Source: a virus
Reading direction: 5' to 3' (one strand)
Virus record (IMG/VR): IMGVR_UViG_3300044620_001722
Location: 1-40,442 of that record
Length of the DNA stretch: 40,442 nt
Part shown: piece by piece, positions 6,699 through 40,442 of the stretch
How positions within the stretch are numbered: position 1 is the stretch's first letter
Layout: the number at the start of each line of letters is the position of its first letter
Notes under the pieces: generated by a model
What the model saw: the letters and a program-made list of their open reading frames with translations, nothing else
Databases searched by the model: none
Told to the model about the DNA's origin: nothing
Translations under genes and position numbers: made by a program

Positions 6699-8690
6699 AT
6701 GCTTATGAAAGACAACGCGGGGACCGTTGAAAACGACGGCCGGGTGGCGGAATGGCTGCGAGAGCTGCACCTGTCCGCCGAGCGTGAGAAAAATTACCGG
6801 AAGGAAGCTGCGGAGGTTCTGAAGATTTACCACGGCAAGCGCCCAGAGCAGGACCAGTTCAACATCCTGTACTCCAATACGGAGACGCTGGCTCCGGCAC
6901 TGTACAACTCCACCCCGCGCCCGACGGTGAAGCGGCGCTTCAACGACGCTGATCCGAAAGCCAAGGCCGCTTCGTCCATCGTTCAGCGGATCTTACAGTA
7001 CCACCTCGATGACGGGCTGGCGGAGTACGCGACCTTCGATTCACTGATCGATTCCGCGGTGCTGCACTCCCTGGTGCCGGCCCGCGGTGTGACTCGCTTT
7101 TGCTACGAAGCGGAGATCGAGAAGCTCGAAGATGGGACGGAGGCCGTCGCTTCGGAGAAGGTCTATGGCAAGTCCGTTGCCTGGGACCACTTCCATCACG
7201 GTTACGGTAAGACCTGGGAAGAAGTGCCCTGGGTCGCTTTCGATCACTTCATGACGAAGGACGAGGTCGAAAAGAACTTCCCGGAAAAGCTGCATCTGCT
7301 CACCCCGAAGCTTCAGCGCCTCGACGAAGAAGACGAGCGGCACATGGACCCACAGCTCAAGGGCCACAAGGTCGTTAAGATCGTTGAGATCTGGGACAAG
7401 GTCACAAAGATGCAGTACTTCCTGTGCCCGGAAGTGCCAGAAGCTTTCTTGCGCGAGCCCGCCCCGGATCCGTACAAGCTATCCGGGTTTTTCCCCTGCC
7501 CGAAGCCGCTCATGCTGTTCAACAGCATTGGGAGTTGCGAGGCGATCCCGCTGTACCGGCTCTACAAGGCGCAGGCGGAAGAGCTCAACGTCGTCACCGT
7601 GCGTATTCAGCGCATCACCAAAGCCTTGAAGGTCCGCGGTTTCTTTGATGCGTCCGTGCAGGGCATCGAGAAGCTCATGGATGCCGACGACAACACGCTG
7701 CTGCCGATGGAAAATGCGGCGGCGCTGTACGGTTCCGGTACTGGTGGCGGTCTCGACAAGGCGATCCTGCTCCTCCCGATCGAGAAGCTCGTCTCCGTGC
7801 TGCAGCAGCTCTACACGCAGCGGGATCAGGTCAAGCGCACGATCTACGAGATCACCGGCATTGCTGACATCATGCGGGGTGTGAGCCAAGCCAGCGAAAC
7901 CCTGGGCGCCCAGGAACTCAAGAACCAATGGGGCACCCTGCGTCTCAAGCGTTTCCAGCGTCGCACGGCTCTGTATGTCCGGAATTGCCTGCGGATGCTG
8001 GCGGAGCTCTCGGTGGAGAACCTCTCCCAGCCGCTGATCGCCTCGATCACGGGCCTGCAGTTCCCGACGGCCGAGGAAAAGGCGCAAGCGCAGGTGCTGA
8101 TCCAGGCCATTCAGCTGCAGGGCGGTCAACCCGACCCGATGACGGTGCAGATCCTGCAGCAGCCGTCTTGGGAAGAGCTCTTGGAGCTGCTGAAAAGCGA
8201 CCTCCAGCGTTCCTACCGCATCGATATCGAGACGAATTCCACACTGGATGCCGAGGCCACGGAAGACAAGCAGGACATTCAAGAGCTGTTGACCGGGCTG
8301 TCGCAGTTCTTCGCGGCTGTCAGCCCGATGGTGGAGAGCGGTACGCTGCCGTTCGACGTTGCCAAGGGCATGCTCGTTGCCATTACTCGTCGGTATCGCC
8401 TGGGCCCGGAGTTCGAGGACGAACTGAACAAAATGCAACCGCCGCAACCACCGGCTGACCCTGCGGCGGAGCTCAAAAAGCTCGAACTGCAGGCCAAGCA
8501 AGCTGAAATGGAGCACGACAAGGAGATGCGCGCTCTGGACATGCAGCTCAAGCGTGAAGAGTTCGCGCTGAAGCAGGCCGATATGCAGCAAAAAGGCGAG
8601 CTGGCCAAGCAAAAGCACGTCATGGACCTGCAAAAGCTTGTGCTCACCGCCCAAGTGCAGTCGCAAAAGCCGGATTCCGACGCGGATTAA
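6699..8690 (+). CDS. Portal protein
   Basis: 663 aa from the ATG at 6699, chosen because GGGGGA lies 6 bases upstream (GTG at 6681 and ATG at 6705 are alternatives). Features of large podovirus portals: a helical N-terminus (ERNEKNYRKEA-like), NILYSNTETLAPALYNSTPRP around residues 52-73, a long stem region, and a C-terminal Gln/Lys-rich coiled coil (about 590-655). Forms the dodecameric DNA channel at one capsid vertex and binds TerL and the adaptor. The stop codon abuts palindromic site C. Identification is by overall pattern and position between TerL and scaffold. Confidence 0.9.
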   Translation: MLMKDNAGTVENDGRVAEWLRELHLSAEREKNYRKEAAEVLKIYHGKRPEQDQFNILYSNTETLAPALYNSTPRPTVKRRFNDADPKAKAASSIVQRILQYHLDDGLAEYATFDSLIDSAVLHSLVPARGVTRFCYEAEIEKLEDGTEAVASEKVYGKSVAWDHFHHGYGKTWEEVPWVAFDHFMTKDEVEKNFPEKLHLLTPKLQRLDEEDERHMDPQLKGHKVVKIVEIWDKVTKMQYFLCPEVPEAFLREPAPDPYKLSGFFPCPKPLMLFNSIGSCEAIPLYRLYKAQAEELNVVTVRIQRITKALKVRGFFDASVQGIEKLMDADDNTLLPMENAAALYGSGTGGGLDKAILLLPIEKLVSVLQQLYTQRDQVKRTIYEITGIADIMRGVSQASETLGAQELKNQWGTLRLKRFQRRTALYVRNCLRMLAELSVENLSQPLIASITGLQFPTAEEKAQAQVLIQAIQLQGGQPDPMTVQILQQPSWEELLELLKSDLQRSYRIDIETNSTLDAEATEDKQDIQELLTGLSQFFAAVSPMVESGTLPFDVAKGMLVAITRRYRLGPEFEDELNKMQPPQPPADPAAELKKLELQAKQAEMEHDKEMRALDMQLKREEFALKQADMQQKGELAKQKHVMDLQKLVLTAQVQSQKPDSDAD

Positions 8691-8725
8691 ACCGCCCAGA
8701 ATACAGGAGAATAATTCATGCCGAT
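8690..8725. promoter_or_regulatory. Palindromic site C (left half intact)
   Basis: Half-site AACCGCCCAGAATA (8690-8703) begins on the last base of the portal stop codon. The 8-bp spacer (8704-8711) carries the AGGAG ribosome site of the next gene, and the right half (8712-8725) overlaps its ATG and is degenerate. On the plus strand AATAAT falls 17 bp after TTAAAC, a weak sigma70-like pair. Confidence 0.6.
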
Positions 8726-11187: not shown

Positions 11188-11223
11188 AACCGGCCAGAAT
11201 ACTCCCCCGTAATCTGGCCGGTT
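11188..11223. promoter_or_regulatory. Palindromic site D
   Basis: The most symmetric copy: AACCGGCCAGAATA (11188-11201), 8-bp spacer, and AACCGGCCAGATTA on the opposite strand (11223-11210), 13 of 14 identical. It sits 4 bp after the capsid stop and 28 bp before the next ATG. As RNA it could also fold into a long hairpin, but there is no T run after it. On the plus strand CGTAAT lies 17 bp after GAAAAC, a poor sigma70 match. Confidence 0.8.
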
Positions 11224-15799: not shown

Positions 15800-17103
15800 G
15801 CACTGCTCCTTTCACCGATTTCGCCGCACAGGCAGCCGCTCTCGAGCGCAAGCGCGCGCTGGCTCAAGCCATGCTGCAGCAAGGCATGACGCCGCAGCAA
15901 GGTTCAATGGTCGGTGGCCACTACATCCGGCGCGGCCCGCTTGGCGCCCTGGGACAAGTCGCGCAGATGGCCGGCGGTCACTTCATGGGCCAGCAGGCTG
16001 AGGCCGGGCAAGCCGCGCTCGCCAAGGACTACCAAAGCGGGCTGGCGCAGGGACTGGAGAAGTATCTCCAAACCCGCGAGGGTGCGCCTGGCCAAACCAT
16101 GAACGATCAGCAGGCGGCTGACTTGATGATGAACGATCAAGCGCCGACGCTGGCCGAGCCGGTCAAAGCCGATCCTCGCCGTGCCGTGATCGAAGCCATG
16201 ACAAGCCAATTCCCGGAGCTGCAAAAGGTCGGGCAGCTGGAACTCGGCGCCATGCTGAAGCCGAAGGGCCGCGATCCGTCGATGATCAGGGAGGCTGGCG
16301 GCCGTTTCTACGACTTGTCCAGCGGGCAGCCTGTCGAAATCGGCGGGAATGAATTCGGCGGGATCGAAGTCATCAATGGTGACACCTACCAGCGCGGACC
16401 TGGCGGCAAGCTGATCAAGCTGGACAATGCCACGAAGGTCAGCACCGTGGTGAATAACAACCCGACGCAGGCGGGGCTCAAGAAGTACCAGGAAGCTGTG
16501 GGCGAAAGCCTTGCCCCCGGGGGCAAGTCGCGCGTGGCTGCGGAGCAAGCTCAGGAAGGCCTCACCGCTTCTGTCGAAGCTCTGCAGGCTGTCAACGACG
16601 GCGCACGCATGGGCATCGCGCAGCCGGCCATGCAGGTTGTTCGCAAGCTCGGCGCGGAGCTGGGCATTGCCAACGCTGAGACGGCTCCGACCGATGCCTT
16701 GTCCGCTGCGCTGAAGCAGTCGGTGTTCAAGGACCTCGGAGGCCTTGGTGCGCAGATCTCTGACGCAGACCGCAAGTTCGTGACGGAGTTCTCGGGCGAT
16801 CTGACCACTGACACCGGCGCGCTGAAACGCATGCTGGCAATTCGCATTGCCGCACAGATCAAAAAGGTCAACGCTCACAACAAGAACGTCGCCGCTTTCG
16901 GGCGCACCGCCGAAGACCCGAACTTCGAAGGCCTTGCCGGGATGCCCCTCAGCATCCAGATCCCTGATGATGAGGTCGCCGCGATGGTGGACAACGTGCT
17001 GCAGGGCAAGCCCACGACAGCCGGGATGGCGAAGCCTCCGAGCAAAACCGGCAAGGTCATGACCGCTGAAGAATGGCTCCGCTCTCGGAAAGGTGGCCAA
17101 TAA
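15796..17103 (+). CDS. Internal virion (ejection) protein
   Basis: 435 aa, GTG start overlapping the previous stop (GTGA). Gln/Ala/Gly-rich, predicted mainly helical, with MLQQGMTPQQG and HYIRRGPLGALGQVAQMAGG near the N-terminus, a form common in podovirus ejection proteins that enter the host envelope with the DNA. No catalytic motif. The stop overlaps the next ATG by one base (TAATG). Confidence 0.7.
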   Translation: MSTAPFTDFAAQAAALERKRALAQAMLQQGMTPQQGSMVGGHYIRRGPLGALGQVAQMAGGHFMGQQAEAGQAALAKDYQSGLAQGLEKYLQTREGAPGQTMNDQQAADLMMNDQAPTLAEPVKADPRRAVIEAMTSQFPELQKVGQLELGAMLKPKGRDPSMIREAGGRFYDLSSGQPVEIGGNEFGGIEVINGDTYQRGPGGKLIKLDNATKVSTVVNNNPTQAGLKKYQEAVGESLAPGGKSRVAAEQAQEGLTASVEALQAVNDGARMGIAQPAMQVVRKLGAELGIANAETAPTDALSAALKQSVFKDLGGLGAQISDADRKFVTEFSGDLTTDTGALKRMLAIRIAAQIKKVNAHNKNVAAFGRTAEDPNFEGLAGMPLSIQIPDDEVAAMVDNVLQGKPTTAGMAKPPSKTGKVMTAEEWLRSRKGGQ

Positions 17104-19127
17104 TGCCGATTGTTCAGATGCCCGATGGGGCGCTGGTCGAGCTGCCGGACAACCCTGATCCGGCTTTGCTTGCTGAGATCGAGGCTGCCGTCGCTCCCGA
17201 AAACCCGGTGAAGCGGCAAGCCAAGCTCATCGGCTCTGACGTGGTGAAGGGTGGGCTTGGCTTGCCTGCAATGGCCATGGACGTCGGCCGCGAAGTGCTC
17301 AACATGCCCTTTACGCTGGGGGAACAGCTCGGCGACAAGGTCATGGGCCGCAAGCCCCGACCCTACGCACCGATCGGCCCGAAGGCTTCGATTGCGCTGC
17401 AAGATTTCGGCGTGAAGCCACAAACCGAAGCCGAGAAGTGGCAATCGCTACTGACGCAAGGCGCCGTCGGTGGTGTGGCTTCGCCCGGCGGGCTGACGCG
17501 TCCTGCCGTGCAAGCCTTCACCGGTGCCGCCGCTGCTGGTGGTTCCGAGGTTGCTGCGCGTCTCGGTGGCGACAACGCCCTGATGCGCGGCCTTGGCGGC
17601 GTCGTTGGCGGCGGACTGGCTGGGCTCGGTTCGAGCTTCCTCAATCGCAGCAGCCCCCGTGTCACCGAACTCGCTCGCGAAAGCCTCGATGGCCTCTCGC
17701 CGGATCAGCTGCAAGCCGCACGCACCTTCATGGAAGGTTCCGGCAAGAACGGTATGCCTCTGGACTTTGCACAAGCGCTCGAAGCCACCGGTGCCCAGCC
17801 ATCTGGCATGCGTGTTTTGCGCGATACCCTGGCGAACGTCAAGGAAGGCGATGCAACGCAGGCCCTGCTCAAGGAGCAACCTGGGCGCTTGCAGGACCTC
17901 TCGGCCCGCTGGGTCGGGAACCAGCCCGGTCGGATCTTCTCGCCGGAGCAAGCCGCAAACAACCTCAGCGAAACCGCTACGGGTGTGCTCAACAACGCGC
18001 GCAAAGCCCGCACGGCTGCGGTCAAACCGTACTTTCAAGCTGCGGGTGATCTCGGCGGGCAGTTCCGTCGTGAGGTGCTGAACGACTTCTCCGAAATGCT
18101 GCAGCAACCGGGACTGACTGACGACAGTGTCAGCGCGATCCGCTCGGCGATGACGAAGGTGAAGGTCCTGCCAGCTACCGGCTCCGTCATGGACGCCGCA
18201 GAGGACTACAACCAGCTGATTCGCGAGCTGCGTGGCAGCTTCACCGCCAACAACCCGAACCCGCGCGATGCGCTGACTCGCGGTCAACTTGGCGAACTGG
18301 CCGGCCGGCTGACCGATCGTTTGAAATCCGCTTCCCCAGAAATCGCGGAGGGCATGGCGAAGTACTCGCAAATCAGCCGCGAGGTCGTGGACCCGCTGAA
18401 GCAAGGTCAGGTCGGCACTCTGGCCGGTCGCTCAGGCTACGATGCTGCGAAGCAGACCCCGGTCAGTCGCATGACCGCGCTGTTTTCCGCCGGTCGCGAC
18501 CCCGCCGCCAAGCACAGCCCGTTGCTGGAAACCGCGCGCACGCTGAACAAGCAAGACCCGTCTGCGTTCGCCGATGCCGCAAAGACCTACTACAGCGGCA
18601 AGATCGCCGAGGCTTTCGACGCCGGCATCGGGGCTGGCGGCAAGGCCACGAACAAGGACGCGGGCTCGAAGATCTACTCTTCGCTGTTCGCCGACTCCAA
18701 GCAATACGCCGGGATGCGCGATGTAGTCACGGCAACGGCGGAAGCGGCCGGCCGCAAACCCGCTGAGGCCTTGCGCGGCCTGGAGAATTTCGCGAAGATC
18801 GTGCGAGCGACCCGCAGCCAGCCTGACAACATCGGGGGCATGAGCCGTCAGCAAATCATCGAAATGGCGGAAAAGCACTACGGGGCCAATGCCATCCGGA
18901 TCTTCGGTTTCCTGCCCTTCGAGCGCATGGCCAGGAACATGGAGTCGGCCACGATGACCAAGACCTTCCGGGAGCTGGACAAGCTCATCACCACCCCAGA
19001 AGGTGTCGATATCCTGATCAAGCTTTCGCAGACCCCTGTCATGGATAGGCGGGCACTCGCGCTGACAGCTACGGCTGGCGGTATGCTGCAATTTGTCGGG
19101 AAAACCGACCAGAATACACCGGAATAA
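17103..19127 (+). CDS. Large internal virion (ejection) protein
   Basis: 674 aa from ATG 17103 (chosen over the upstream in-frame extension because of TAATG coupling). Residues 40-95 (GSDVVKGGLGLPAMAMDVGREVLNMPF) and a Gly/Ala-rich stretch at 130-180 look amphipathic or membrane-active. The rest is long helices. This is the largest of the three consecutive ejection-type proteins and, by analogy with P22 gp16/gp20 and T7 internal proteins, may form the trans-envelope channel. Its last codons and stop lie within palindromic site E. Confidence 0.7.
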   Translation: MPIVQMPDGALVELPDNPDPALLAEIEAAVAPENPVKRQAKLIGSDVVKGGLGLPAMAMDVGREVLNMPFTLGEQLGDKVMGRKPRPYAPIGPKASIALQDFGVKPQTEAEKWQSLLTQGAVGGVASPGGLTRPAVQAFTGAAAAGGSEVAARLGGDNALMRGLGGVVGGGLAGLGSSFLNRSSPRVTELARESLDGLSPDQLQAARTFMEGSGKNGMPLDFAQALEATGAQPSGMRVLRDTLANVKEGDATQALLKEQPGRLQDLSARWVGNQPGRIFSPEQAANNLSETATGVLNNARKARTAAVKPYFQAAGDLGGQFRREVLNDFSEMLQQPGLTDDSVSAIRSAMTKVKVLPATGSVMDAAEDYNQLIRELRGSFTANNPNPRDALTRGQLGELAGRLTDRLKSASPEIAEGMAKYSQISREVVDPLKQGQVGTLAGRSGYDAAKQTPVSRMTALFSAGRDPAAKHSPLLETARTLNKQDPSAFADAAKTYYSGKIAEAFDAGIGAGGKATNKDAGSKIYSSLFADSKQYAGMRDVVTATAEAAGRKPAEALRGLENFAKIVRATRSQPDNIGGMSRQQIIEMAEKHYGANAIRIFGFLPFERMARNMESATMTKTFRELDKLITTPEGVDILIKLSQTPVMDRRALALTATAGGMLQFVGKTDQNTPE

Positions 19128-19138
19128 TCCGGTCGGAG
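19103..19138. promoter_or_regulatory. Palindromic site E
   Basis: AACCGACCAGAATA (19103-19116), 8-bp spacer, opposite-strand half CTCCGACCGGATTA (19138-19125). It supplies the final codons and the stop (19125-19127) of the large ejection protein and ends 7 bp before the next ATG. AATAAT lies 17 bp after GAAAAC on the plus strand: good -10, poor -35. Confidence 0.8.
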
Positions 19139-19145
19139 AATCATC

Positions 19146-19961
19146 ATGCCTTTCAACGGTGCAGGCGTCTACAGTCCCCCCAGTCCCCCCGTGTTCCCCG
19201 TCGTGACGGCGGAGCTGATCAAGGCGGCCGATTTCAACACGACGATCAGTGACATTGCGGCGGCTCTCACCAACTGCGTCACGAAGGACAACCAGTCGAC
19301 GACGCCGGCGTTGACTGTCGGTACGCTGACAGCGACCACGGCTGCAAACTTGCCGGCAAATGCTACGGTGGGCGGTCAGCCGGCTCTGACTCGTCGCTAT
19401 ACCACGGGCGAAGTGATTCTGTCGATCTCGTCGACTGCCCCAACGGGTACTGTCGCGATGAATGGCACGACCATCGGATCAGCCATTTCCGGCGCAACCG
19501 GGCGAGCCAACAGTGACACGCAGGCGCTCTTCGAGCTGATCTGGACTTCGAGCGACAACACACTGTCTCCGATTCAAGATGCCAGCGGTGCGCCCACAAC
19601 GCGCGGAGCTTCCGCAGCCGCGGACTTCGCCGCAAACAAGCGCATGCCTGTGCCGGCGCCGCAAGATGGCGATGCGCTGCTGATGGCGATTTCCAGCTCC
19701 GTGATTTCTCGGTCCGCTGGGGAAGTGCTGAGCCATACGCACACAGCGACTGCCGCAAATTCTGGCATCCATAATCATGGAGTTCCTTCGGGGTCCTCAG
19801 AAGGTGATGACCCTAATACCTGCACAAACGGCGGCGGGCGCAACGGAACCGTGTCTTCCGATGCTGCAGGGGAGCACTCTCACACCATCACCGTCGACGC
19901 TTTCGGCGGTACGAAGAACAAAGCCGCCGGCCTGTTCCTCAAGCCTTACATCGCGCTTTGA
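19146..19961 (+). CDS. Tail fibre tip protein with His-rich receptor-binding end
   Basis: 271 aa, GGAG 8 bases before ATG. N-terminal AELIKAADFNTTISDIAAAL is a virion-attachment-like helix. The C-terminal third has HTHTATAANSGIHNHG, GEHSHTITVDAFGG and ends GLFLKPYIAL, the His-pair collar motif seen in T4 gp37/lambda Stf-type fibre tips, where HxH pairs bind metal along the trimer axis. It probably acts as a second receptor-binding protein besides the esterase fibre at 4684-6657. Confidence 0.75.
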   Translation: MPFNGAGVYSPPSPPVFPVVTAELIKAADFNTTISDIAAALTNCVTKDNQSTTPALTVGTLTATTAANLPANATVGGQPALTRRYTTGEVILSISSTAPTGTVAMNGTTIGSAISGATGRANSDTQALFELIWTSSDNTLSPIQDASGAPTTRGASAAADFAANKRMPVPAPQDGDALLMAISSSVISRSAGEVLSHTHTATAANSGIHNHGVPSGSSEGDDPNTCTNGGGRNGTVSSDAAGEHSHTITVDAFGGTKNKAAGLFLKPYIAL

Positions 19962-21518: not shown

Positions 21519-21642
21519 AGCAAATTGTCCCGAAGACCTCGGAGCCTTGCGGAACCGGGAATTCGGGACAACGACGGAAAAGCTGCTGGAAGTGCTGGAA
21601 ACTTACCGGGCTTGCGTAGCGGCCGCTAAGGCTTGCCGATAG
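21361..21642 (+). CDS. Rz1: o-spanin lipoprotein (Rz1-like)
   Basis: 93 aa, GTG start with GAAGGAG upstream, out of frame with Rz, which it overlaps by 158 bp. Signal sequence LVTFLCIVIAFMTSGC ending in a lipobox (C36), then a short periplasmic part that is longer than lambda Rz1 and Pro-poor. The outer-membrane partner of Rz. Last gene of the plus-strand operon. Confidence 0.8.
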   Translation: MQSQPSNLNPARSYSGLGKSLVTFLCIVIAFMTSGCLATLTNSSVVPAKALIEANCPEDLGALRNREFGTTTEKLLEVLETYRACVAAAKACR

Positions 21643-21648
21643 CGGCGA

Positions 21649-22881
21649 TCATTGCAACAACCTGGACGGCTCTGCGGAGCCGTTTTTCGCTGTTGGGAGC
21701 TCCGCCGCGCCCAGGCGGACTTTGCTGCCGGCCATAGAGAGAAATCCGGCTTTGACACAGCCCGCGAACACGTCTTCGAAATCCCGCATGGAAGGGAAAT
21801 AGGTGTGGACGAAGCGGTAGACCTCAGGGTATTCCACCTCGCCCTTGGACGCAACGAAGTTGATGATCCGCTCGGCGTACAGGGAAGTGTCGGTCCGGCC
21901 GATCTTGGAGAACACGAACTGCATGTCCGGCTCCAGATCCGTAATCATCGTGTAAGCCACATCAAGATGATCAGGGGTGATAACCATAGAGTCGCTGCTC
22001 GCCGCAGCCAGGACCATCGCGAGTTTATGAATATGTGTCTGCTTGCGCGCAATGTACCCACCAAAACGCTCAGGGTCCAGGTTTGCACTCCTTGTTGAAT
22101 AATGCCTCTTGTACCAGGCCTCACCCCAAGCAACTGCGTCAGGGCTAAGAACGTACTCGCCAACGAGATTCTGAGAAATGTGCGTAAGATCGGCGACAAG
22201 ATCAGCCTCCAATTTCTGCAGCGTTGATGGGACGGCGAGCCCGGGGTATGCGACAAATTTCGCCTTGGCGTCGGCGTAGACAAAGATCGTCCGGGAAGTG
22301 AATCCACCCCCGATCATGTACTCGGGGAAGTTCCCTGCGATCCAGCTCGGTGTGGTGCAGGCGATGAGATTGATCCAGGGGTTTTCCACGCTGTCCGATC
22401 CACTGTGCTTTGTGGACTTTTGGAACGTTCCCTGCTTTCCGTCCCAGAGCGACACCAGGAGGTCGACCATCTGCTTGTCCTGCGGGTCCAGGAGATTCCC
22501 GAACTCGGAGGATTCGAGCGTCATGGCTGACATGGTGTGAATCTCCCCGCCGTGCTCGAAGCCTTCAGCAGCGCCTGAGAACGCCTCCACAAGCGCCGGC
22601 CACGTCACCACGTCAGGACCGAACTGTACGCCAGGGACCTTGCGCAGCAAGTTCATCGCTACCCCCGCTGTCGTGGACTTCGACACAATGCCGGGCGGGG
22701 CCACCAGGCAGATGTAGAAGTTCGGATACCAGCGGAAGTAGGCTTGATCGATCCAGACCTTACGGCGCAGGGCCCCGGCAACTGCCGACACTCCTGCCCA
22801 GAAGTACATATGCCGAGGGGCTTCACCGAAGGAGGAATACTCCAGAAAGCTGGTGAGCCAGTTCCCCAGGACTCGTGCCAT
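21649..22881 (-). CDS. DUF3987-like primase/helicase ATPase
   Basis: 410 aa, last gene of the minus-strand block, converging on the lysis genes. N-terminal domain with a P-loop variant APPGIVSKSTT (61-71), then SMTLESSEFGNLLD and WDGKQGTFQKSTKHSGSD, and NPWINLIACTTPSWI, matching the replicative ATPase region of DUF3987/primase-helicase proteins of phages. The C-terminal part is a helical winged-helix-like region. Probably the replication helicase or primase-helicase partner of the polymerase just upstream. Its ATG lies in a degenerate palindromic site (L). Confidence 0.7.
   Translation of the reverse strand: MARVLGNWLTSFLEYSSFGEAPRHMYFWAGVSAVAGALRRKVWIDQAYFRWYPNFYICLVAPPGIVSKSTTAGVAMNLLRKVPGVQFGPDVVTWPALVEAFSGAAEGFEHGGEIHTMSAMTLESSEFGNLLDPQDKQMVDLLVSLWDGKQGTFQKSTKHSGSDSVENPWINLIACTTPSWIAGNFPEYMIGGGFTSRTIFVYADAKAKFVAYPGLAVPSTLQKLEADLVADLTHISQNLVGEYVLSPDAVAWGEAWYKRHYSTRSANLDPERFGGYIARKQTHIHKLAMVLAAASSDSMVITPDHLDVAYTMITDLEPDMQFVFSKIGRTDTSLYAERIINFVASKGEVEYPEVYRFVHTYFPSMRDFEDVFAGCVKAGFLSMAGSKVRLGAAELPTAKNGSAEPSRLLQ
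21666..21687 (+). terminator. Intrinsic terminator ending the late operon
   Basis: ACGGCTC / GAGCCGT form a 7-bp stem with a TGCG loop, followed by a run of T. It lies inside the 3' end of the convergent minus-strand gene 21649-22881, so one sequence serves as terminator and coding region. Confidence 0.8.
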
Positions 22882-22908
22882 ATAAGTGTCTCCGAATTGT
22901 GGTCAATC
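22873..22908. promoter_or_regulatory. Degenerate palindromic site L
   Basis: One half (22895-22908, AATTGTGGTCAATC) matches the right half of site B at 10 of 14. The partner half overlaps the ATG of the 22881 gene and is decayed, as in site C. The 8-bp spacer contains the GGAG ribosome site of that gene. Minus-strand TTGACC is followed 16 bp later by TATATG. Confidence 0.5.
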
Positions 22909-25275
22909 GCACTCGCCCCAGGAAACCCGGGAGGTCTTGCAGCCAACAGGTATAACAAGAGGGTCGTCGTAGGGCAAGGGAATTTCTGCCAATTCGATGA
23001 CTCGGCGAGTTAGTTCGGCTTCTCGCCGCGTTGGGAATTGCCCGGCAAGCGAGTCATGGACCTGTAGCAGTATCTCAATTTCAGGTTCCTGCCGGTCAAT
23101 CTCCATGTAAGCTCGATTGATGAGGCAGCCCACGGTCGATTGGGGAATCCAAGCAATCGCGACGTTGAAAATTGTCCCTTCGATTCGTTCGAGGAAATAG
23201 CGACGATAGCCGAAAATGTTTTCAACCATTCGGCGCTTGACGACCTGATCCTTGACGTCATCTTGCCAACGGCGGATTTCCGGAAACTTACCGAAGTACC
23301 ATGCCTGCGTCTTCTCTGCTTCGTGGACAAGCAGACCAAGCCGCTCGGCAAGCCCCTTAGCCGAACCGAGGTAGTTTGTCCCGTGACAGAAGGCTTTGAA
23401 CAGCTGTCGGCGCGGGTCCTTTTTAGTGAGCGTTGGGTCATGGTAGAATTCCTTAGCGACTTCGGTGTAGGGGTCTAGGCCTTCGCGTAGCATGGCTTTC
23501 AGCTCGCTGGCCCCGGACTCCCAAACCACAATTCGTAGGTCAGCTGAACCGAGGTCGATATCGAAGAAGGTCCGGCCTGGGTCTGGGATAAACATGCTTC
23601 GAATGTTTGGCAGCGAAAGCCTGTCCCCGTCTTCCCCCTTCGGAATATTCTGAAGGTTGAGCCCTGTCCCGAAAGCGTTGGTTGAGGAACTGAACCGATA
23701 TGTGTCGGTTCCAGGGATGCTAAAACTGCTTCGCATTCTGCCATCAACATCACAAGAGCTGTTGATGAAGGTAGAGAGGAAAACACCAAGCGACCGGAGG
23801 TCTTGAATTTTCTCAATGAGGGGTCGTAGCGCAGGTTCGCGAGCAGCAATGCGCAAAAGCGCTTCATCGTCCGTTGAAGGCGTTCGTGTCTTTCGTCCCA
23901 GAACCACGGGCTGGCCCAGTTTGAGGTAGAAGAGCTCGCACATCTGGGCTGGCGAGCGTATGTTGATGGACTCGCCGAGTACGTCTTCGATCCAGGCTTG
24001 CCGGTCTTCGATTTGAGCCTGGACTGCTTTGCGGAATTCCGATCGTGTCGCTTCATTGATGCGCACCCCTCGTTGCATGGTCTTGAGAACGGGCCACCAC
24101 AAGGCTTGCTGGAAGTCGTGTGGGCCGCGCACTCCGATCATGTCGACAACGCGCTGCTCTTCGTCGTCGACCTCATAAGTGATCACTGCGTCTTTGCAGT
24201 TGTAGCCCCAATACTGGTCTTCCGGAATCGACGGGTTCCATTCTTTGCCTTCGTCTTTCCAGTACTCGTGGAAACCGCAGTACATCGAAGAGAGGAAATC
24301 GAGGCCCTTCTGCATCGTGGAGAAGCAGGAATGCTGCGCGATCATGGTGTCGCGAGTCAAGCGCGGGACGAAACCCCAGAATCTGTCAATGTACTGCGCG
24401 TCGTAGTGGAAATTCTGGCCGATGACGACAGCGTTGCGGTGTGTCAGCAATCGCCAGAGTCGGTAGACGATTTCAGCTTCTTCGTCCTCGGCCCAATAGC
24501 CTTCCACCCGCTCCGTGCACATCAACGGAATGCAGATCGCTTCGAGCTTCGACCACGCCAGCCCGATACACGCGATGTTGTAAGCACGGGTTTCAATGTC
24601 CACGCTGAGCTTCGTTGGCTCGGCTTCAACGAGGCGCTGAAGCAGGTCCAAGTAGTGCAGAACGGTGGCGTAATCCGGCCGAATTACGAAGGAATATTCT
24701 GGGCGTTTAAACCCCCCGGCGCGGAGGATCGAAACTGCGCGCTTGAGGTCCTGCACCACCACACCGCGCTTTTCCCATGCCGCGTTGACGAACCCCGGCG
24801 GAAGCGTCGGCACGACGGCCGGCTGGTAATCCAGACCCGTGGCCAGATCAGCGCTGAGCATCGAACCACGCCAGGAGGTAACGCCCCACTGGCCGGTAAG
24901 CATCCACATCGCGGCGTTGCCCAGGGCAATGATGACGGTCGGGCGGACTTGCTCGATCTCCCGGGCCAGCATCTGCATGTGATCGCAGACCAGGGGCAGA
25001 ACGTGCTTGTCACGGGTGATCGTGTGCGCTGGGGTGATGTCCTTCTTCTTCGTCGCGATCAGCGATTCGATCTCGCCACGCGGGGGGCGGATCTTCAGCG
25101 CGGACGTAATGTAGCACTGAGAACGCAAGATCCCGGCGTCCTTGAGCATGTCGTTGAAGGTCGAGCCGTTGCCGTCCGACAGGGCGACGCCGGCGCGGAA
25201 ATCCCCCTCGGAAGGGAACTCAGCGACGATCATGATGCGGGCCGGCGCTGGGCCGGAAGGGCGAATGAGGCTCAT
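22903..25275 (-). CDS. UDG-like domain fused to family A DNA polymerase
   Basis: 790 aa; ATG overlaps the previous stop by one base (TAATG). Residues 13-165 resemble a family 4/5 uracil-DNA glycosylase: IMIVAEFPSEGD, ITSALKIRPPRG (57-67), RPTVIIALGNAAMWMLTG (111-128), but the His-Pro of the second active-site motif is replaced (PTLPPG, 156-161) and the usual four Fe-S cysteines are lacking. The 3'-5' exonuclease has VDIETR (D226, E228), GQNFHYDAQY and YNCKDA (D362). Polymerase: TYRFSS...LNLQNIP (525-545), motif A DIDLGSADLR (572-581), motif B RRQLFKAFCHGTNYLG (K627, Y635), motif C QVHDS (H740, D741). The replicative polymerase. The domain linker (residues 190-201) coincides with palindromic site N. 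Confidence 0.92.
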   Translation of the reverse strand: MSLIRPSGPAPARIMIVAEFPSEGDFRAGVALSDGNGSTFNDMLKDAGILRSQCYITSALKIRPPRGEIESLIATKKKDITPAHTITRDKHVLPLVCDHMQMLAREIEQVRPTVIIALGNAAMWMLTGQWGVTSWRGSMLSADLATGLDYQPAVVPTLPPGFVNAAWEKRGVVVQDLKRAVSILRAGGFKRPEYSFVIRPDYATVLHYLDLLQRLVEAEPTKLSVDIETRAYNIACIGLAWSKLEAICIPLMCTERVEGYWAEDEEAEIVYRLWRLLTHRNAVVIGQNFHYDAQYIDRFWGFVPRLTRDTMIAQHSCFSTMQKGLDFLSSMYCGFHEYWKDEGKEWNPSIPEDQYWGYNCKDAVITYEVDDEEQRVVDMIGVRGPHDFQQALWWPVLKTMQRGVRINEATRSEFRKAVQAQIEDRQAWIEDVLGESINIRSPAQMCELFYLKLGQPVVLGRKTRTPSTDDEALLRIAAREPALRPLIEKIQDLRSLGVFLSTFINSSCDVDGRMRSSFSIPGTDTYRFSSSTNAFGTGLNLQNIPKGEDGDRLSLPNIRSMFIPDPGRTFFDIDLGSADLRIVVWESGASELKAMLREGLDPYTEVAKEFYHDPTLTKKDPRRQLFKAFCHGTNYLGSAKGLAERLGLLVHEAEKTQAWYFGKFPEIRRWQDDVKDQVVKRRMVENIFGYRRYFLERIEGTIFNVAIAWIPQSTVGCLINRAYMEIDRQEPEIEILLQVHDSLAGQFPTRREAELTRRVIELAEIPLPYDDPLVIPVGCKTSRVSWGECD
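24673..24708. promoter_or_regulatory. Palindromic site N, inside the polymerase gene
   Basis: ATCCGGCCGAATTA (24673-24686), exact 8-bp spacer, opposite-strand half AAACGCCCAGAATA (24708-24695). It encodes residues 190-201 of the polymerase, the linker between the UDG-like and exonuclease domains. On the minus strand TTTAAA is followed 17 bp later by CGTAAT, so a weak internal promoter is possible. Confidence 0.75.
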
Positions 25276-25814
25276 TAGACCCCCATCCAGTGAAGTTGCT
25301 CGGACCTTTTCCAGGCATGCACCGTACGATCTTGGTATTTGACGCGGCCGCGCACGGCGCCAACTGTCGAGTAATGCAAAAGTTTCGGGTACAGCTCCTG
25401 AACTTCCGGCCCGATAAGCTCGAACGTGTTGTCCGGATCATCCACGAAGCGGAGCTGAACCAGCAAAGGAAAGGTTTTTGCTTGCGGTTTTTTGGCCGCC
25501 TCAGCCTCCTCGATCAACGCAATCGCCAGCACAGCGTAATTGATCAGATCGTGGAAGCGCCCAACAATCGGCTCACTGAGTTTCGGCTCTTCTCCACGCT
25601 GCTTCGCGCGAACATAGGACGACACCGAATCCCAATGCTTCGCCATGTAGACGTGCAGTACCGTCAGAGGCTCCACCCCGGTATTGACCGCGCCGCGCTT
25701 AAAGTTCGCGAGCCGGTCTTCCGACCCTGCGTACTCGGCACCTTTACTAACGAGAATATCAACAGTGTCGGATTGAACGCGCTTGCACAGTGCTTCGAAA
25801 TCTTGCTGGTTCAT
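25275..25814 (-). CDS. DUF1599/Nmad1-like nucleotide-related protein
   Basis: 179 aa. Residues 1-115 show the pattern F..L..RV..D..DILVSKGAEYAGSEDRLANFKRGAVNTG, VYMAKHWDSVSSYV and EPIVGRFHDLINYAVLAIALIEE, which I associate with DUF1599 (nucleotide modification associated domain 1), a helical family thought to bind nucleotides. A C-terminal extension (VRGRVKYQDRTVHAWKRSEQLHW) is of unknown role. Coupled by one-base overlap to the polymerase and close to the methyltransferase, which suggests a role in the precursor pool or base modification. Confidence 0.65.
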   Translation of the reverse strand: MNQQDFEALCKRVQSDTVDILVSKGAEYAGSEDRLANFKRGAVNTGVEPLTVLHVYMAKHWDSVSSYVRAKQRGEEPKLSEPIVGRFHDLINYAVLAIALIEEAEAAKKPQAKTFPLLVQLRFVDDPDNTFELIGPEVQELYPKLLHYSTVGAVRGRVKYQDRTVHAWKRSEQLHWMGV

Positions 25815-25824
25815 GTCAGCTCCT

Positions 25825-27234
25825 TCAGATCATGGCCGGCTCTTCGCCGATTTTGATATCCTTCGCACGGCGGAGGCACAGACCGTAGTATTCGGGATTC
25901 AGCTCGGTGACGGTCGCTGCGCACTTGAAGCTGTGCGCCGCCGGGATCAGCGTGCCCGTGCCGCCGAAGGCGTCGAAGACACGGTCGCCGGGCTTGACGC
26001 TGCGCTGCAGCAGGTTTTGGTACAGCGCAACCGGCTTCTGCGCACCGTGCGACGTGTTCTTGTCGCCTTCGACCGAGATCACATCAGGGTAGATGTGCGT
26101 GACCGGCTTGTTGCCCTTGATCGCGTAGAGGATGATTTCGTACTGACGACGCGGGCCACGATCGGGCAAGGGCACGCGGCCGCTGTTGAGCTTGTGCACG
26201 ATCAGCGGGGTGCGGAAGACGTACCAGCCAGCAGCGAGCATGAATTCCTTGAGCTTGTGGAAGTTGTCGAAATCACAGAAGACGTAGGCGTGAGCTTCGG
26301 GCTTGGCCACGGCGAAGGACAGCGGAGCCCAATTGCGCATGAGGCTGAGCCAGCTCTCATAGCTGTCGTCATAATGGTGCTCCACGCCCGTGAGCTTGCC
26401 GCCAGCATCGCCGAAGGAATCAGCACCCATACCATACGGCGGGTCAGTCAAGATCACATCGAACTTTTTGTCCGCCGGGCCGTCAGCCACGCTGCGCATG
26501 AACTCCAGGCAATCGATGTTGAGGATGCTGTGAGCGTCAGCCGTGAACGTGGCGCCGATCACGCGGGCCAGCTCGACGTTGCGGCCAGCTTCTTCCTGCT
26601 TTTTCAGGATCTTGAACGCCTCATCGACTGACTTGGCTTTGGCCACAGCCGGGTTGTCGAGGTGCTTGGCCACGATCAGCTCTTTGCGGACCTTGTCGCG
26701 GTAGTTGCCATCGTCGCGGCCGTGGATTTCCAGCGCGGTGTCGTTGATCGTGTGGGCCGGGGTGGCTGGCTGCTCGGCGTCTGGCAAAGCCGCAACGGCC
26801 TTGGCGCGCTTGGCTTCAGCCTGCATCATGCGCAGCTCATGGAGCTTCTTCGTCGCGTCGGCACTTTCCTGCCACGTCAGATCTTTCCGGCGGATGTTCT
26901 CGTCCAGCTCGGCTTCGAAAGCGTCGATTTCCGACAGCTCGCCAAGGTCGGTGTACGGGATGACGCCGGCATCAGCTGTGTAGAGCTTACCGTTGTAGCG
27001 GAACTCGCCGCCCAGGGCGAAGATATCACCAATGACCTTGAGACGGGTTTCGCCCGCCACCAGTACCATGGCTTCACCTTCCCGCCGCAGCACCGGCGCG
27101 TGCATGAGCTGGGCATTCGGCCGGTCCTTGCTGGTCTCGATCGACGCCTGCATTTCCAGCATTTTGGTGGGGTCGAACTCGCGTCGCTGGCGATTGGGCT
27201 TGATGACGACGGCGGACAAAGCGATATCGGGCAT
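25825..27234 (-). CDS. ParB-like domain fused to DNA adenine/cytosine-N4 methyltransferase
   Basis: 469 aa from ATG 27234 (GGAG upstream; the longer frame to 27432 would run through site F). The N-terminal ~125 residues are ParB/sulfiredoxin-like: a VVIKPNRQRREFDPTKM start, HAPVLRREGEAMVLVAGETRLKV (46-67) and DLTWQESADATKKLHEL. The helical linker is followed by a beta-class amino-methyltransferase: TDPPYGMG (263-270, motif IV), then GDRVFDAFGGTGTLIPA (416-432, SAM-binding motif I). Methylates N6-A or N4-C in DNA. The ParB part may give sequence recognition or be a nuclease. It could protect phage DNA or mark control sites. Confidence 0.88.
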   Translation of the reverse strand: MPDIALSAVVIKPNRQRREFDPTKMLEMQASIETSKDRPNAQLMHAPVLRREGEAMVLVAGETRLKVIGDIFALGGEFRYNGKLYTADAGVIPYTDLGELSEIDAFEAELDENIRRKDLTWQESADATKKLHELRMMQAEAKRAKAVAALPDAEQPATPAHTINDTALEIHGRDDGNYRDKVRKELIVAKHLDNPAVAKAKSVDEAFKILKKQEEAGRNVELARVIGATFTADAHSILNIDCLEFMRSVADGPADKKFDVILTDPPYGMGADSFGDAGGKLTGVEHHYDDSYESWLSLMRNWAPLSFAVAKPEAHAYVFCDFDNFHKLKEFMLAAGWYVFRTPLIVHKLNSGRVPLPDRGPRRQYEIILYAIKGNKPVTHIYPDVISVEGDKNTSHGAQKPVALYQNLLQRSVKPGDRVFDAFGGTGTLIPAAHSFKCAATVTELNPEYYGLCLRRAKDIKIGEEPAMI

Positions 27235-27485
27235 TTTCGGGGCTCCATGGTGGCCGTGGGTGGCCGGGATTGGGGAGAGGCGCACGGCGGGGGTGGATCG
27301 GGCCGTGGCGGCGTTTTTGCCGTGGGGTGGGGGGTGGATATGGTCCGGGGTCGAAAATCGCGCCACGGGCCGGAAATAAAACCGCCCGAAATACGGCGGA
27401 TTATTCTGGTCGGTCAATCCCGCCACCCACAAGCGAAAGCGCCCCGTATAAGTCCGGGGCCACGACTGTCAGCGATCGGCGAGGA
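27235..27485. promoter_or_regulatory. Control region upstream of the methyltransferase gene
   Basis: 251 bp without a gene. Contains palindromic site F and, between it and the ATG, a leader of about 145 bp that shares blocks with the left end of the genome (195-207, 255-270). The minus-strand TTGACC (27417-27412) is a good -35; the -10 choices (GTATTT at 17 bp, TATTTC at 18 bp) are weak. Confidence 0.55.
27380..27415. promoter_or_regulatory. Palindromic site F
   Basis: AACCGCCCGAAATA (27380-27393), 8-bp spacer, opposite-strand half GACCGACCAGAATA (27415-27402). Lies about 150 bp upstream of the ParB-methyltransferase start. The minus-strand flank completes TTGACC, pointing the possible promoter at that gene. 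Confidence 0.8.
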
Positions 27486-32361: not shown

Positions 32362-32397
32362 TACCGCCCGAATTATGCCGGATTATTCCGGGCGGTT
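32362..32397. promoter_or_regulatory. Palindromic site G
   Basis: TACCGCCCGAATTA (32362-32375), 8-bp spacer, opposite-strand half AACCGCCCGGAATA (32397-32384). Lies between the helicase stop and the next minus-strand start (32330). Confidence 0.8.
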
Positions 32398-34502: not shown

Positions 34503-34678
34503 GGTGTGTCCTTGGTGGGGTGGGTGGCGGGCAGCGTCGGCAGAGTGGCAGCGGCCCAAACCATCCCAGCCTTGATGTGCTCGGGGTAGGCGTCGATTCG
34601 GTCGGCCGCCTCCTTGACCTTCGCGGCGAACCATTCGCGGCTGTGCTTGCGCGGGGCGGGCTTCGGTGCTTTCGCCAT
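34499..34678 (-). CDS. Small hypothetical protein (59 aa)
   Basis: 59 aa from ATG 34678 (a GTG at 34681 is an alternative; GGAGGGGGG lies upstream). Basic start (MAKAPKPAPRKHSREW), helix (AAKVKEAADRIDAY) and hydrophobic segment around MVWAAATLPTLP. Overlaps its neighbours by one and four bases, so it is part of a coupled series. Confidence 0.55.
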   Translation of the reverse strand: MAKAPKPAPRKHSREWFAAKVKEAADRIDAYPEHIKAGMVWAAATLPTLPATHPTKDTP

Positions 34679-35325
34679 CACTTCCCCCCTCCCGCCTGGG
34701 CGGACATGGCGGCGTCAAAGCCGGGGTGCCTGAACTCAACCCCGCACTTCTTGCACTTCTCAAGCCCTGGCGCAACGTAGTCACGCGGGCAACGAGACTT
34801 TGCATGGCCGGTGTCCACCCACTCCCCCGTGAAGGGGTGTTCGTAGCCAGTCGGCTCCCACTGCTGCTTGGGGCATTCCCACTTGGCATGCTCGTGGCCC
34901 AGAGCCAAAGGTTTACCGGTTGCGTCGTAGTAGCCCCAGGTTGCCCGCACCACCCCCGCATCCAGCGCAGGGGCCGGGGCTTGAGGGGCGGCGTCAGACC
35001 AATCCAATCGCGCCGGCTCGCTCCCAGCGTCTGCAACCCATCCGCTGGTTGTCGCTTGCTGTGCGGGCTTGAGCGTGATGACGACCTCCAAACCAAGGTG
35101 TGCGGCCAGCTTCGTCAGATGTCGCAACTCGACGCGGCACCTGCCTGACTCGTAGTTGGTCACGCTGGTGCGCTCCACGCCAAGCACGGCGGCAACCTCG
35201 GCCTGAGTCATGCGCGCAGCTTGGCGCATGTTGAACATGGTCGCTGCGAGCTGGTCAGCGTCTGGATCGGGCAGCTTCGCTTTCGAGACGGGCTTGATGT
35301 CGTCGGTGTTCAGTTCGATCTTCAT
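34678..35325 (-). CDS. XRE-type HTH regulator with C-terminal zinc-binding region
   Basis: 215 aa from ATG 35325, ATGA overlap with the upstream gene. Residues about 25-85 form an XRE/Cro-type helix-turn-helix: MFNMRQAARMTQAEVAAVLGVERTSVTNYESG, of which the recognition helix is around VERTSVTNYESG. After a Pro/Ala linker the C-terminal third holds CPKQQ..., RCPRD and CKKCG cysteines that could bind zinc. The only clear sequence-specific DNA-binding regulator in the window, and a candidate reader of the dispersed palindromes. It could alternatively act as the antitoxin-like or Cro-like regulator of its own operon. Confidence 0.78.
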   Translation of the reverse strand: MKIELNTDDIKPVSKAKLPDPDADQLAATMFNMRQAARMTQAEVAAVLGVERTSVTNYESGRCRVELRHLTKLAAHLGLEVVITLKPAQQATTSGWVADAGSEPARLDWSDAAPQAPAPALDAGVVRATWGYYDATGKPLALGHEHAKWECPKQQWEPTGYEHPFTGEWVDTGHAKSRCPRDYVAPGLEKCKKCGVEFRHPGFDAAMSAQAGGGK

Positions 35326-35675
35326 GCCGCACCTCCCGCCTGGGCCTGGGTTTCGGGCAGCTTGGCCAGCCAGTTGCGGTCGAAGTCGTGCATGGCCGCT
35401 GACGGGCTGTTGCCAAACCCGGCCACGCCGTCTTGCAGGTTGTCGCCGTAGAGCGCGCGCCATTGGTTGCCGTCGATGCTCAGGGACGGGCGAAAGATGA
35501 CCGAGGGGCGGCGCTGTTCATCGGCGGTGACCATGAACTCTTGCGCAACGCACCGCATGTGGTGATCTGCCATGCTGAAGGCATCGCGCAGGGCGCTTTC
35601 CATGGTTTGCCCAACGTCGCAGCCTTGAATTCGGCTGCGCACTGCGTCGTAGATTGGTTGGTAGCTGTCGCTCAC
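35322..35675 (-). CDS. Hypothetical protein (117 aa)
   Basis: 117 aa, GTG start with AGGAGG upstream overlapping the previous stop (GTGA); the longer ATG form is a shadow. Start SDSYQPIYDAVRSRIQGCD, middle MADHHMRCVAQEFMVTADEQRRPSVIFRPSLSIDGNQW, and LQDGVAGFGNSPSAAMHDFDRNW, a compact alpha/beta pattern of small phage genes. Function unknown. Confidence 0.65.
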   Translation of the reverse strand: MSDSYQPIYDAVRSRIQGCDVGQTMESALRDAFSMADHHMRCVAQEFMVTADEQRRPSVIFRPSLSIDGNQWRALYGDNLQDGVAGFGNSPSAAMHDFDRNWLAKLPETQAQAGGAA

Positions 35676-36760: not shown

Positions 36761-36878
36761 GGATGAATCCCCAGGAAAGGGTGTTGGCTTCGAAGTGATA
36801 CTGCATCGCGCCCGGCACGCAGTGCCAAGCGAAGTGCGTGTGCCGAATGGTGGCGATGATTTCGGCTGCGTCAGGCAT
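36753..36878 (-). CDS. Short protein (41 aa), translationally coupled
   Basis: 41 aa; its ATG lies 8 bp inside the upstream gene and its stop 8 bp inside the next, a pattern seen all along this operon. Reads MPDAAEIIATIRHTHFAWHC then VPGAMQYHFEANTLSWGFIHV. A clear open frame with His/Trp-rich composition; too short for domain calls. The size is below usual ORF cut-offs, but the arrangement supports it. Confidence 0.5.
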   Translation of the reverse strand: MPDAAEIIATIRHTHFAWHCVPGAMQYHFEANTLSWGFIHV

Positions 36879-37206
36879 AATGCTTCTTCATCGTTTTGAA
36901 GGGTTCGAGATCATAGCCCAGAGCTTCCAGCTCGGCCACCAGGAGCTTGTCGGCTTCGCTGTGCCCGCCTTCGTGATCGCCGGCGGCGTGCATCTTGCAC
37001 AACATGAGCTGCACTGTCAAGTCCTCCCGGCGCTTCACCGCCGCGAAGTGCTGCGCAATGAGCCCCTCCACAAAGGCTGCCCAGGCGCCGTACGGCACAC
37101 GGCCTTCAAGCTCGCTGAACAGCTCCAGGTCAACGCGATCGACGACATCGCTGGACATGGTGATTTTCTTGTCGATCCGGGGGATCGCGGACTTCGGTCG
37201 GGCCAT
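36871..37206 (-). CDS. Ribbon-helix-helix-like small DNA-binding protein (putative)
   Basis: 111 aa; start overlaps the previous stop by one base (TAATG). Basic N-terminus MARPKSAIPRIDKKITMSSDVVDRVDL then FSELEGRVPYGAWAAFVEGLIAQHFA resembles an RHH (Arc/MetJ type) fold: short beta strand with KKITM, then helices. C-terminal half acidic, helical. If true it is a second potential operator-binding protein after the XRE regulator. Confidence 0.55.
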   Translation of the reverse strand: MARPKSAIPRIDKKITMSSDVVDRVDLELFSELEGRVPYGAWAAFVEGLIAQHFAAVKRREDLTVQLMLCKMHAAGDHEGGHSEADKLLVAELEALGYDLEPFKTMKKHYA

Positions 37207-37951: not shown

Positions 37952-37987
37952 AACCGCCCATATTATCGCCGATTAATTCGGTCGGTT
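37952..37987. promoter_or_regulatory. Palindromic site H
   Basis: AACCGCCCATATTA (37952-37965), 8-bp spacer, opposite-strand half AACCGACCGAATTA (37987-37974). Stands 69 bp upstream of the 37883 start. Confidence 0.8.
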
Positions 37988-38249: not shown

Positions 38250-38813
38250 TCAGAAGCCTGCGAGCAGGGCGTCGCCGTCGATCTGCGGACGCTTGCTGGC
38301 CTTCTCGGCTTCCAGGCGCACGATGATCTCCTTGACGGCGGGCACTTCGCGCAGGGCGAGCTTCTCGGCGTGGGACTTGCCGTCGAGGAATTCCTTGACC
38401 TCGGCGACCGACTTGCCGCGCAGTTCGCACAGGGCGCGGATCAGCACGCTGGCGCCGGCCATGCCCGAGCCTTCGCGGCGGACGTTGAACTCGCCGGCGT
38501 TCAGGCGGTCGATCAGCGCGTCGATGGTCAGGACCTTGTCTTCGATGCTGGCTTCCTGGCCGGTCGAGGGGTCCTTGAGGCCGGCGATCTCGTCACCGAG
38601 CTTCTGCTCCGCGCCGTGGGCGGCGAATTGCAGCAGCAGCGCGCCCGGGACGGTGAACAGGCGGGTCTCGCCGTTGCGGAAGTCCAGGCGGACTTCGACC
38701 TTGCCGTCGGCCGTGATGGTCGAGGACTTCTGCAGCTGGCGCTTGCCGGGGAAGTCGACGATGCGCTCGTCGTCCATCTTGACGGTTTCGACTTGGGGTT
38801 CGGTTTTGGCCAT
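38250..38813 (-). CDS. Conserved phage protein, paralogue of the 430-945 product
   Basis: 187 aa from ATG 38813 (GAAAGG upstream). The N-terminal half has a beta-strand pattern (KVEVRLDFRNGETRLFTVPG), the C-terminal half helices with IEDKVLTIDALIDRL, ALCELRGKSVAEVKEFLDG and LREVPAVKEIIVRLEAEKA, ending PQIDGDALLAGF. It shares the C-terminal half and end with the 171-aa product at 430-945; the N-terminal halves differ more. Codon use is strongly biased to G/C, suggesting high expression. It has its own promoter and terminator-like hairpin, so it is a monocistronic unit. Function unknown. Confidence 0.85.
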   Translation of the reverse strand: MAKTEPQVETVKMDDERIVDFPGKRQLQKSSTITADGKVEVRLDFRNGETRLFTVPGALLLQFAAHGAEQKLGDEIAGLKDPSTGQEASIEDKVLTIDALIDRLNAGEFNVRREGSGMAGASVLIRALCELRGKSVAEVKEFLDGKSHAEKLALREVPAVKEIIVRLEAEKASKRPQIDGDALLAGF

Positions 38814-38914
38814 GATTGGGCCCTTTCGTGGATGATGTTGGCAGGCAGTTGAGTGGCCGATTAGCGACGGGTTGGGGTGCTTGCCGGTATGCCCCGCCCC
38901 GTCTCGGTACACCG

Positions 38915-40237: not shown

Positions 40238-40442
40238 AAAACCCCAGCGAACGCCCAGCAGACGCCGGGCGACCACGGATTACTGCCAAGGGGGCGTGGG
40301 GAGGGTCGGCGAGGTCAAAACCGCCCGGAATAAACCCGGGTATTGTGGGCGGATAACCCCCCGCAGCGCGCACGCGAGAGGGCACGGGCCTGGGGCGTGC
40401 ATGGGGGTTTTCGGTGCGGTGAATAGAGGCCCGTGGCGGCGT
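40238..40442. repeat. Right copy of 205-bp terminal direct repeat
   Basis: Identical to 1-205 except for T at 40315 in place of C. It begins just after an AT-richer stretch and includes the second copy of palindromic site A (40319-40354). If the unit is circular this is the same locus as the left end. Confidence 0.9.
40319..40354. promoter_or_regulatory. Palindromic site A, second copy in the right terminal repeat
   Basis: Same sequence as 82-117. In this copy the element stands upstream of the minus-strand operon beginning at 39828. Confidence 0.75.

Follow-up and report, generated by a model that had tools for sequence, protein, structure and literature searches.

Operators inside coding sequences are known from Escherichia coli, where lac O2 lies in lacZ and a PurR site lies in purB. 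Roadblocking by LacI and PurR has been noted (PMC4132739), and for the controller protein C.Kpn2I a site in its own coding region has been described as an elongation roadblock (PMC6237814). Cluster A mycobacteriophages (L5 repressor) carry many operators or stoperators, at promoters and in short intergenic gaps, for which a role in stopping both initiation and elongation has been proposed; these sites are 13 bp long, asymmetric and oriented with transcription, and are bound by a two-domain helix-turn-helix (HTH) monomer (PMC9283540, PMC6550527). The sites analyzed here, one of which lies within a phage DNA polymerase gene, are palindromic and not asymmetric, and were not filed as stoperators.

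The in-gene site and its family in the window

The window, i.e. the whole stretch of 40,442 nucleotides of viral DNA that was analyzed, contains on its minus strand a polymerase gene of 790 amino acids (22903-25275) combining UDG, 3'-5' exonuclease and family A DNA polymerase, for which Pfam places UDG at residues 8-175, exonuclease at 215-371 and Pol A at 412-762. The putative in-gene operator (24673-24708, minus strand) has 36 bp, formed by the 14-bp half-sites AAACGCCCAGAATA (24708-24695) and TAATTCGGCCGGAT (24686-24673) and the 8-bp spacer TTCCTTCG (24694-24687). Its in-frame product is K190-RPEYSFVIRP-D201, which according to the Pfam domain bounds puts the site in the linker that precedes the exonuclease domain. 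Downstream of it, on the same strand as the polymerase, lies a DUF3987 (ATPase-like) gene (21649-22881). Scored with a half-site profile built without this copy, the site reached 35.4 bits, while the maximum found by chance in 60 first-order Markov genomes was 9.6 bits and the highest-scoring place in the window outside the family gave 7.0 bits. By this score it forms one sequence family with the intergenic operators of its genome, which bears out the sequence-only reading of a site at this position with both half-sites and the 8-bp spacer, encoding residues 190-201. The two arms agree with each other at just 8 of 14 positions, and recognition of the site is based on the match of each half to the family consensus AACCGNCCRRAWTA.

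Other family copies are distributed along the whole window. Those at 82-117, in the left terminal repeat, and at 40319-40354 (minus strand), at the head of the leftward early region, are a single site duplicated by the 205-bp terminal repeat; this direct repeat spans 1-205 and 40238-40442, with one mismatch (base 78), and includes one site copy. Further copies are located upstream of a small-terminase-like gene (1615-1650), immediately after the major head protein gene (11188-11223, the same place in nearly all relatives), between the gene at 17073-19127 and the fibre-like gene at 19146 (19103-19138) and at the start of the methyltransferase gene (27380-27415). Before an FmdB-like gene there is a half-site (8690-8725, or 8690-8717 in a narrower delimitation), with a perfect left half and the ribosome-binding site of this gene in the spacer; the other half is overwritten by the start codon of the gene, and the relative L001 has a full site (7753) at this place. 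The idea that all other copies mark gene boundaries holds, with two qualifications: the copy at 19103 overlaps the preceding stop codon, and that at 27380 falls within the first codons of the methyltransferase gene in its longest ORF reading.

Two copies on the minus strand lie over sigma-70-like promoters with 17-bp spacing, one at 32362-32397 (TTGAAC 32400-32395, CATAAT 32377-32372) and the other at 37952-37987 (TTGAAC 37990-37985, GATAAT 37967-37962), the latter upstream of the operon that contains the candidate regulator discussed below. In the window and in several relatives, early promoters of the form TTGA[AC][ACG]-N17-[CG]ATAAT (also given as TTGACR-N17-[CG]ATAAT) overlap the copies of the leftward early region in a fixed register, and no -35 element was found at the late copies nor at the polymerase (pol) copy. 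Relatives have their sites at corresponding places: one follows the major head protein gene, one precedes the small-terminase-like gene by about 110 bp, one comes ahead of the fibre gene, one is adjacent to the Dda-like helicase, one is found around 38250-38912 and one is in pol. The genome of relative L037 (G021) has in addition a strong family copy (17103, 35.5 bits) within the portal gene, a second in-gene operator there.

Operator dialects and codon choice in the linker

Relatives were collected by their polymerase: viral contigs gave 8 loci at first and 80 with a profile, and a handful more came from genome contigs; GenBank MW202489.1 (L001, 64%) and Microcystis phage Mel-JY34 were also found. 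Site families were searched de novo in whole genomes or large genome pieces, with the search seeded on a TA-N8-TA core, so that families lacking this core would be missed. Most relatives have 3-12 dispersed TA-N8-TA palindromes, the arms of which differ from phage to phage. These dialects include CCGNCCRRAWTA in the window, CCGNCGGGTTTA in L001, ACACGGCCGCATTA in L005, TGTGTGGGTTA in L006 and L007, TGCGCGGATTA in L008, TCTCGACCGAGTTA in L027 and TTGNNNNTNCAATA in L022, others being present besides.

When the UDG-polymerase junction was scored against the motif of every genome, the diagonal excess was 10.96 bits (18 genomes, permutation p<=5e-5), although the junction did not rank its own motif first in 8 of the 18, several dialects scoring others equally well. 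The own-dialect excess at the junction was the top of 750 pol positions, with 3.7 for the runner-up. The correspondence extends to the protein. The in-gene half-site of L027, AATCGACCGAGTTA, which encodes RPSY with Ser at 193, is identical in 14 of 14 positions to an intergenic site of its own genome (1988); L004 and L005 have Thr198 (ACG), resulting in TAACGCGGCCG; L022 has Gln in both halves of the in-gene site, and in L008 CV and RV take the place of RP. In the L064-L083 lineage, 44-46% identical, the peptide FHRDYxxLIAVD spells the dialect of that lineage, TTTCACCGNGATTA, and the in-gene site shares up to 26 of 28 arm positions with an intergenic copy. As judged from these sequence comparisons, the in-gene copy follows the dialect of its own genome, even via amino acid changes.

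Codon choice in the linker was analyzed column by column in a 34-member clade. Codon 197 (Val, Ile or Leu) is NTA in 94% of its members, the gene mean being 10% and the highest NTA column outside the site segment 37%. The Asp codon 193 is GAT in 18 of 18 cases and codon 201 is GAT in 19 of 22, while CCG is used at codon 200 in 82% and at codon 192 in 73%. These are the most extreme biases in the 790-codon gene among columns of their kind. In the other 48 homologues, NTA drops to 38% at codon 197, and CCG to 9% at codon 192 and 15% at codon 200. This column-wise test superseded a windowed scan of synonymous conservation, which was less informative, as high scores also went to strongly conserved catalytic stretches. 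In addition, each linker was redrawn synonymously with the codon usage of its own gene and scored against the motif of its own genome; the observed own-motif match was reached at p 0.00025-0.00125 in every one of the 19 genomes (19/19). The sequence-only reading had set its proposal against an absence of nucleotide conservation beyond the protein, and the codon bias and the recoding test clearly reveal such conservation. The suggestion that the site still works is thus strongly supported, both by a codon choice that preserves it and by its co-evolution with the site family of its own genome, and these data indicate that 24673-24708 is almost certainly a working DNA site.

Candidate regulator, proposed action and origin of the site

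P22 Arc and MetJ are small ribbon-helix-helix repressors, in which alternate residues of the N-terminal strand set the specificity. A candidate of this kind to bind the site family is the 111-aa product of the gene at 36871-37206 (minus strand), homologues of which were found in 23 of the 26 genomes examined, the remaining three being fragments. In a scan for covariation between whole proteins and motifs, it ranked first of 22 conserved proteins (r 0.38, p 0.002). Its residues 12, 14 and 16 change together with the sequence of the site and, with a partial Mantel r of 0.50 (p 2e-4, controlling for polymerase distance), rank first among 54 i,i+2,i+4 triples in covariation with the motif; they are D-K-T in the window and R-N-S in L006. 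By residue, K14 goes with CCGNCCGG, N, S or E at position 14 with CCC-GGG types, and the combination R12-N14 with TGTG or TGCG types. These alternate residues of the presumed strand apparently set base specificity, as far as covariation can tell. In the AlphaFold2 model the chain is extended up to residue 18, followed by helices at 19-29 and 41-74, with pLDDT values of 94-98 over residues 11-60, and a 60-aa homologue is likewise predicted. Sequence searches with this protein gave no Pfam, PHROG or PDB match and no HTH match, hhalign against MetJ and Arc (with approximate sequences) was negative, and Foldseek with the model returned no PDB match and no ribbon-helix-helix structure. The assignment to a fold class is therefore based on the predicted strand-helix-helix order, according to which the protein is probably ribbon-helix-helix-like. 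We consider it likely that this protein binds the 24673 site.

Two other proteins had been considered as binders. The small-terminase-like HTH protein (1748-2302) was last of 22 in the covariation scan (r -0.26), and the HTH_3/HTH_31 protein (34678-35463), perhaps a recent acquisition, has no homologue in the relatives examined and was discarded as a clade-wide binder. The methyltransferase (25825-27432) was second in the same scan (r 0.29, p 0.014), a value that is nonsignificant after correction and that may reflect chance, or methylation touching the sites.

The best explanation, and one that seems fairly probable from the sequence data, is that the site is an operator of a phage-wide regulon, located inside pol and bound by the 36871-37206 protein, a roadblock being its likeliest mode of action. 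The pol-linker site would be one of about eight syntenic operators of the regulon, and the protein would probably bind as two dimers at a distance of 22 bp, each on one half-site. In the early-operon promoters, where the operator lies over the -35/-10, the bound protein would block initiation, including that of the operon of the regulator itself. Since there is no early-type promoter in pol, the effect there would be exerted on passing RNA polymerase, for which the bound protein would most likely represent a roadblock; as infection turns late, the 3' part of pol and the DUF3987 gene would then be transcribed less, and looping from the pol site to other operators could possibly take place. Roadblock, looping and activation are not separated by sequence alone, and the chance that a roadblock, rather than another effect, operates at the pol site is put tentatively at slightly less than even.

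As one way in which the site could still be active, the sequence-only reading had proposed an internal promoter for the polymerase and the downstream ATPase; such a promoter or operator would start transcription of the DUF3987 gene and of an N-terminally truncated polymerase. The location of other copies just upstream of genes, the overlap of the early copies with a sigma-70-like promoter in several genomes, and the fact that many relatives have CATAAT at the pol site in the register of a -10 would fit such a role, but we regard it as unlikely. The -35/-10 of the two early-operon copies are absent from the pol site, which shows no good -35 in the genomes examined; the A at -11 varies, with ATA in 15 cases, GTA in 12 and TTA in 5 at codon 197; no sigma-70-like match was found in 21600-25900, and there is no conserved in-frame start codon after the site. 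Because sigma-70 elements are absent at the pol site, an intragenic operator or roadblock is favored over an internal promoter.

The genome-wide distribution of the copies, several of them without a recognizable promoter, could also suggest a dispersed genome-organizing element, or a centromere- or iteron-like site for replication or segregation, and not a transcription operator. This is improbable, given that the copies are syntenic and directly upstream of gene starts and that those of early promoters keep a fixed register over the -35/-10. Even less credit can be given to the copies being RNA hairpins (terminators, RNase III sites or translational operators) and not DNA sites. They are palindromic and many are in 5' leaders near start codons, but pairing of the arms is no better inside one site than across different sites of a genome (within-site minus between-site pairing had a mean of -0.38 pairs, and within exceeded between in 4 of 20 genomes), which argues against hairpins; moreover, the isolated half-site at 8690 is unable to form one, and the covarying partner resembles a DNA-binding strand.

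The position of the site between two domains, while other copies are intergenic, had led to the suggestion that separate UDG and polymerase genes with a control site between them were joined through the site. The comparison of relatives does not support this. All homologues in the codon alignment, from which the frame-interrupted loci L062, L077, L044 and L088 were left out, are UDG-exonuclease-polymerase fusions, down to 34% identity, and the length of the linker is nearly equal with and without the site. In a polymerase tree (81 rows) from which the linker columns had been excluded, the site is present in 40 rows, and its presence or absence requires 7 changes, compared with a mean of 27.3 after shuffling. 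The deepest branches, as far as an uncertain root allows them to be defined (L086, L068, L076, L084, L087 and L002), are fused and lack the site; these are ancient fused genes of precisely the kind that the sequence-only reading had listed as evidence against itself. Looking in relatives for split UDG and polymerase genes with the site between them, as it had recommended, yielded a single split at the linker. In this locus (L044:688-3383), an HNH-like endonuclease ORF (1343-1684) interrupts the polymerase a short way downstream of the site, the exonuclease-polymerase part starts at a separate ATG (1668), and the site's right half has degenerated; from its sequence, the split is a later endonuclease insertion into a fused gene. 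With relatives fused, the deepest of them without the site, and the L044 split being an insertion, a fusion through the site is very improbable. A selfish palindromic insertion of the Rickettsia palindromic element type, which would add residues with respect to site-free homologues, is likewise not supported, the linker having essentially the same length in both.

L044 has an additional HNH-like ORF at 288-728. In L088 (4929-8473) the polymerase is split near residue 545, with a 173-aa ORF (6978-7499), Lon/S16-protease-like by eye, between the parts. Within the clade, L021, L026, L035 and L051 have no pol site, which is therefore not indispensable. In L021 (L107/L108, G012), a close relative without the pol copy, the start of the methyltransferase gene, which lies upstream of pol, bears a site that may functionally replace the missing one.

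The weakest alternative is a coincidence at the protein level, by which the linker peptide RPDYxFIIRPD would merely be encoded by a site look-alike: the half-site can be read in the frame of this conserved peptide (CGN CCN GAN TAY), and random recoding alone reaches 9-21 bits in many genomes, but the codon biases, the recoding test, the match to the dialect of each genome and the different peptides with which L064-L083 and L008 spell their own dialects make it hardly conceivable.

Comparison with known systems

In the part of the literature covered, neither this site family nor any co-evolution of operators within a phage polymerase gene was found to be described. The data would be compatible with a polymerase linker dictated by the operator, in which the drifting dialects of the regulator drag amino acids of the polymerase along, so that regulatory co-evolution rewrites a protein; we lean slightly towards this interpretation. 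If true, the 36871-37206 family would constitute a transcription switch, new and phage-wide, whose residue-to-operator code can be read. Intragenic operators were already known, and what is offered here are dozens of natural replicates of one regulon in many dialects, with the evolution of the pol operator readable in both DNA and protein. How a regulator and all its sites shift specificity together can be tested in this group, as can the drivers of the fast turnover of phage operators and the extent to which regulatory DNA constrains an important protein. Another outcome is a map of regulation, together with a candidate global regulator, for a phage group that is widespread and almost uncharacterized.

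Like the stoperators of cluster A, the sites are present in numerous copies dispersed through a phage genome, mostly in short intergenic gaps; unlike them, they are 36-bp palindromes with an 8-bp spacer, are fewer, have a different candidate protein and include one inside the coding sequence of the DNA polymerase. The 36871-37206 protein resembles Arc and MetJ in its small size, in the predicted strand-helix-helix order and in the alternate residues of the N-terminal strand that apparently set specificity, but no match to known members was detected in sequence or fold, and the loop between its helices is longer than that of Arc. With the C.Kpn2I site the in-gene operator shares the location inside a coding sequence and would share the action as a roadblock; that system represents autoregulation in restriction-modification, whereas here the gene is that of a replicative polymerase and the site is one of a regulon. 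Finally, as in lac O2 and the PurR site of purB, the in-gene operator shares the specificity of the promoter operators, with the difference that here it tracks a changing specificity through amino acid changes in the host protein.
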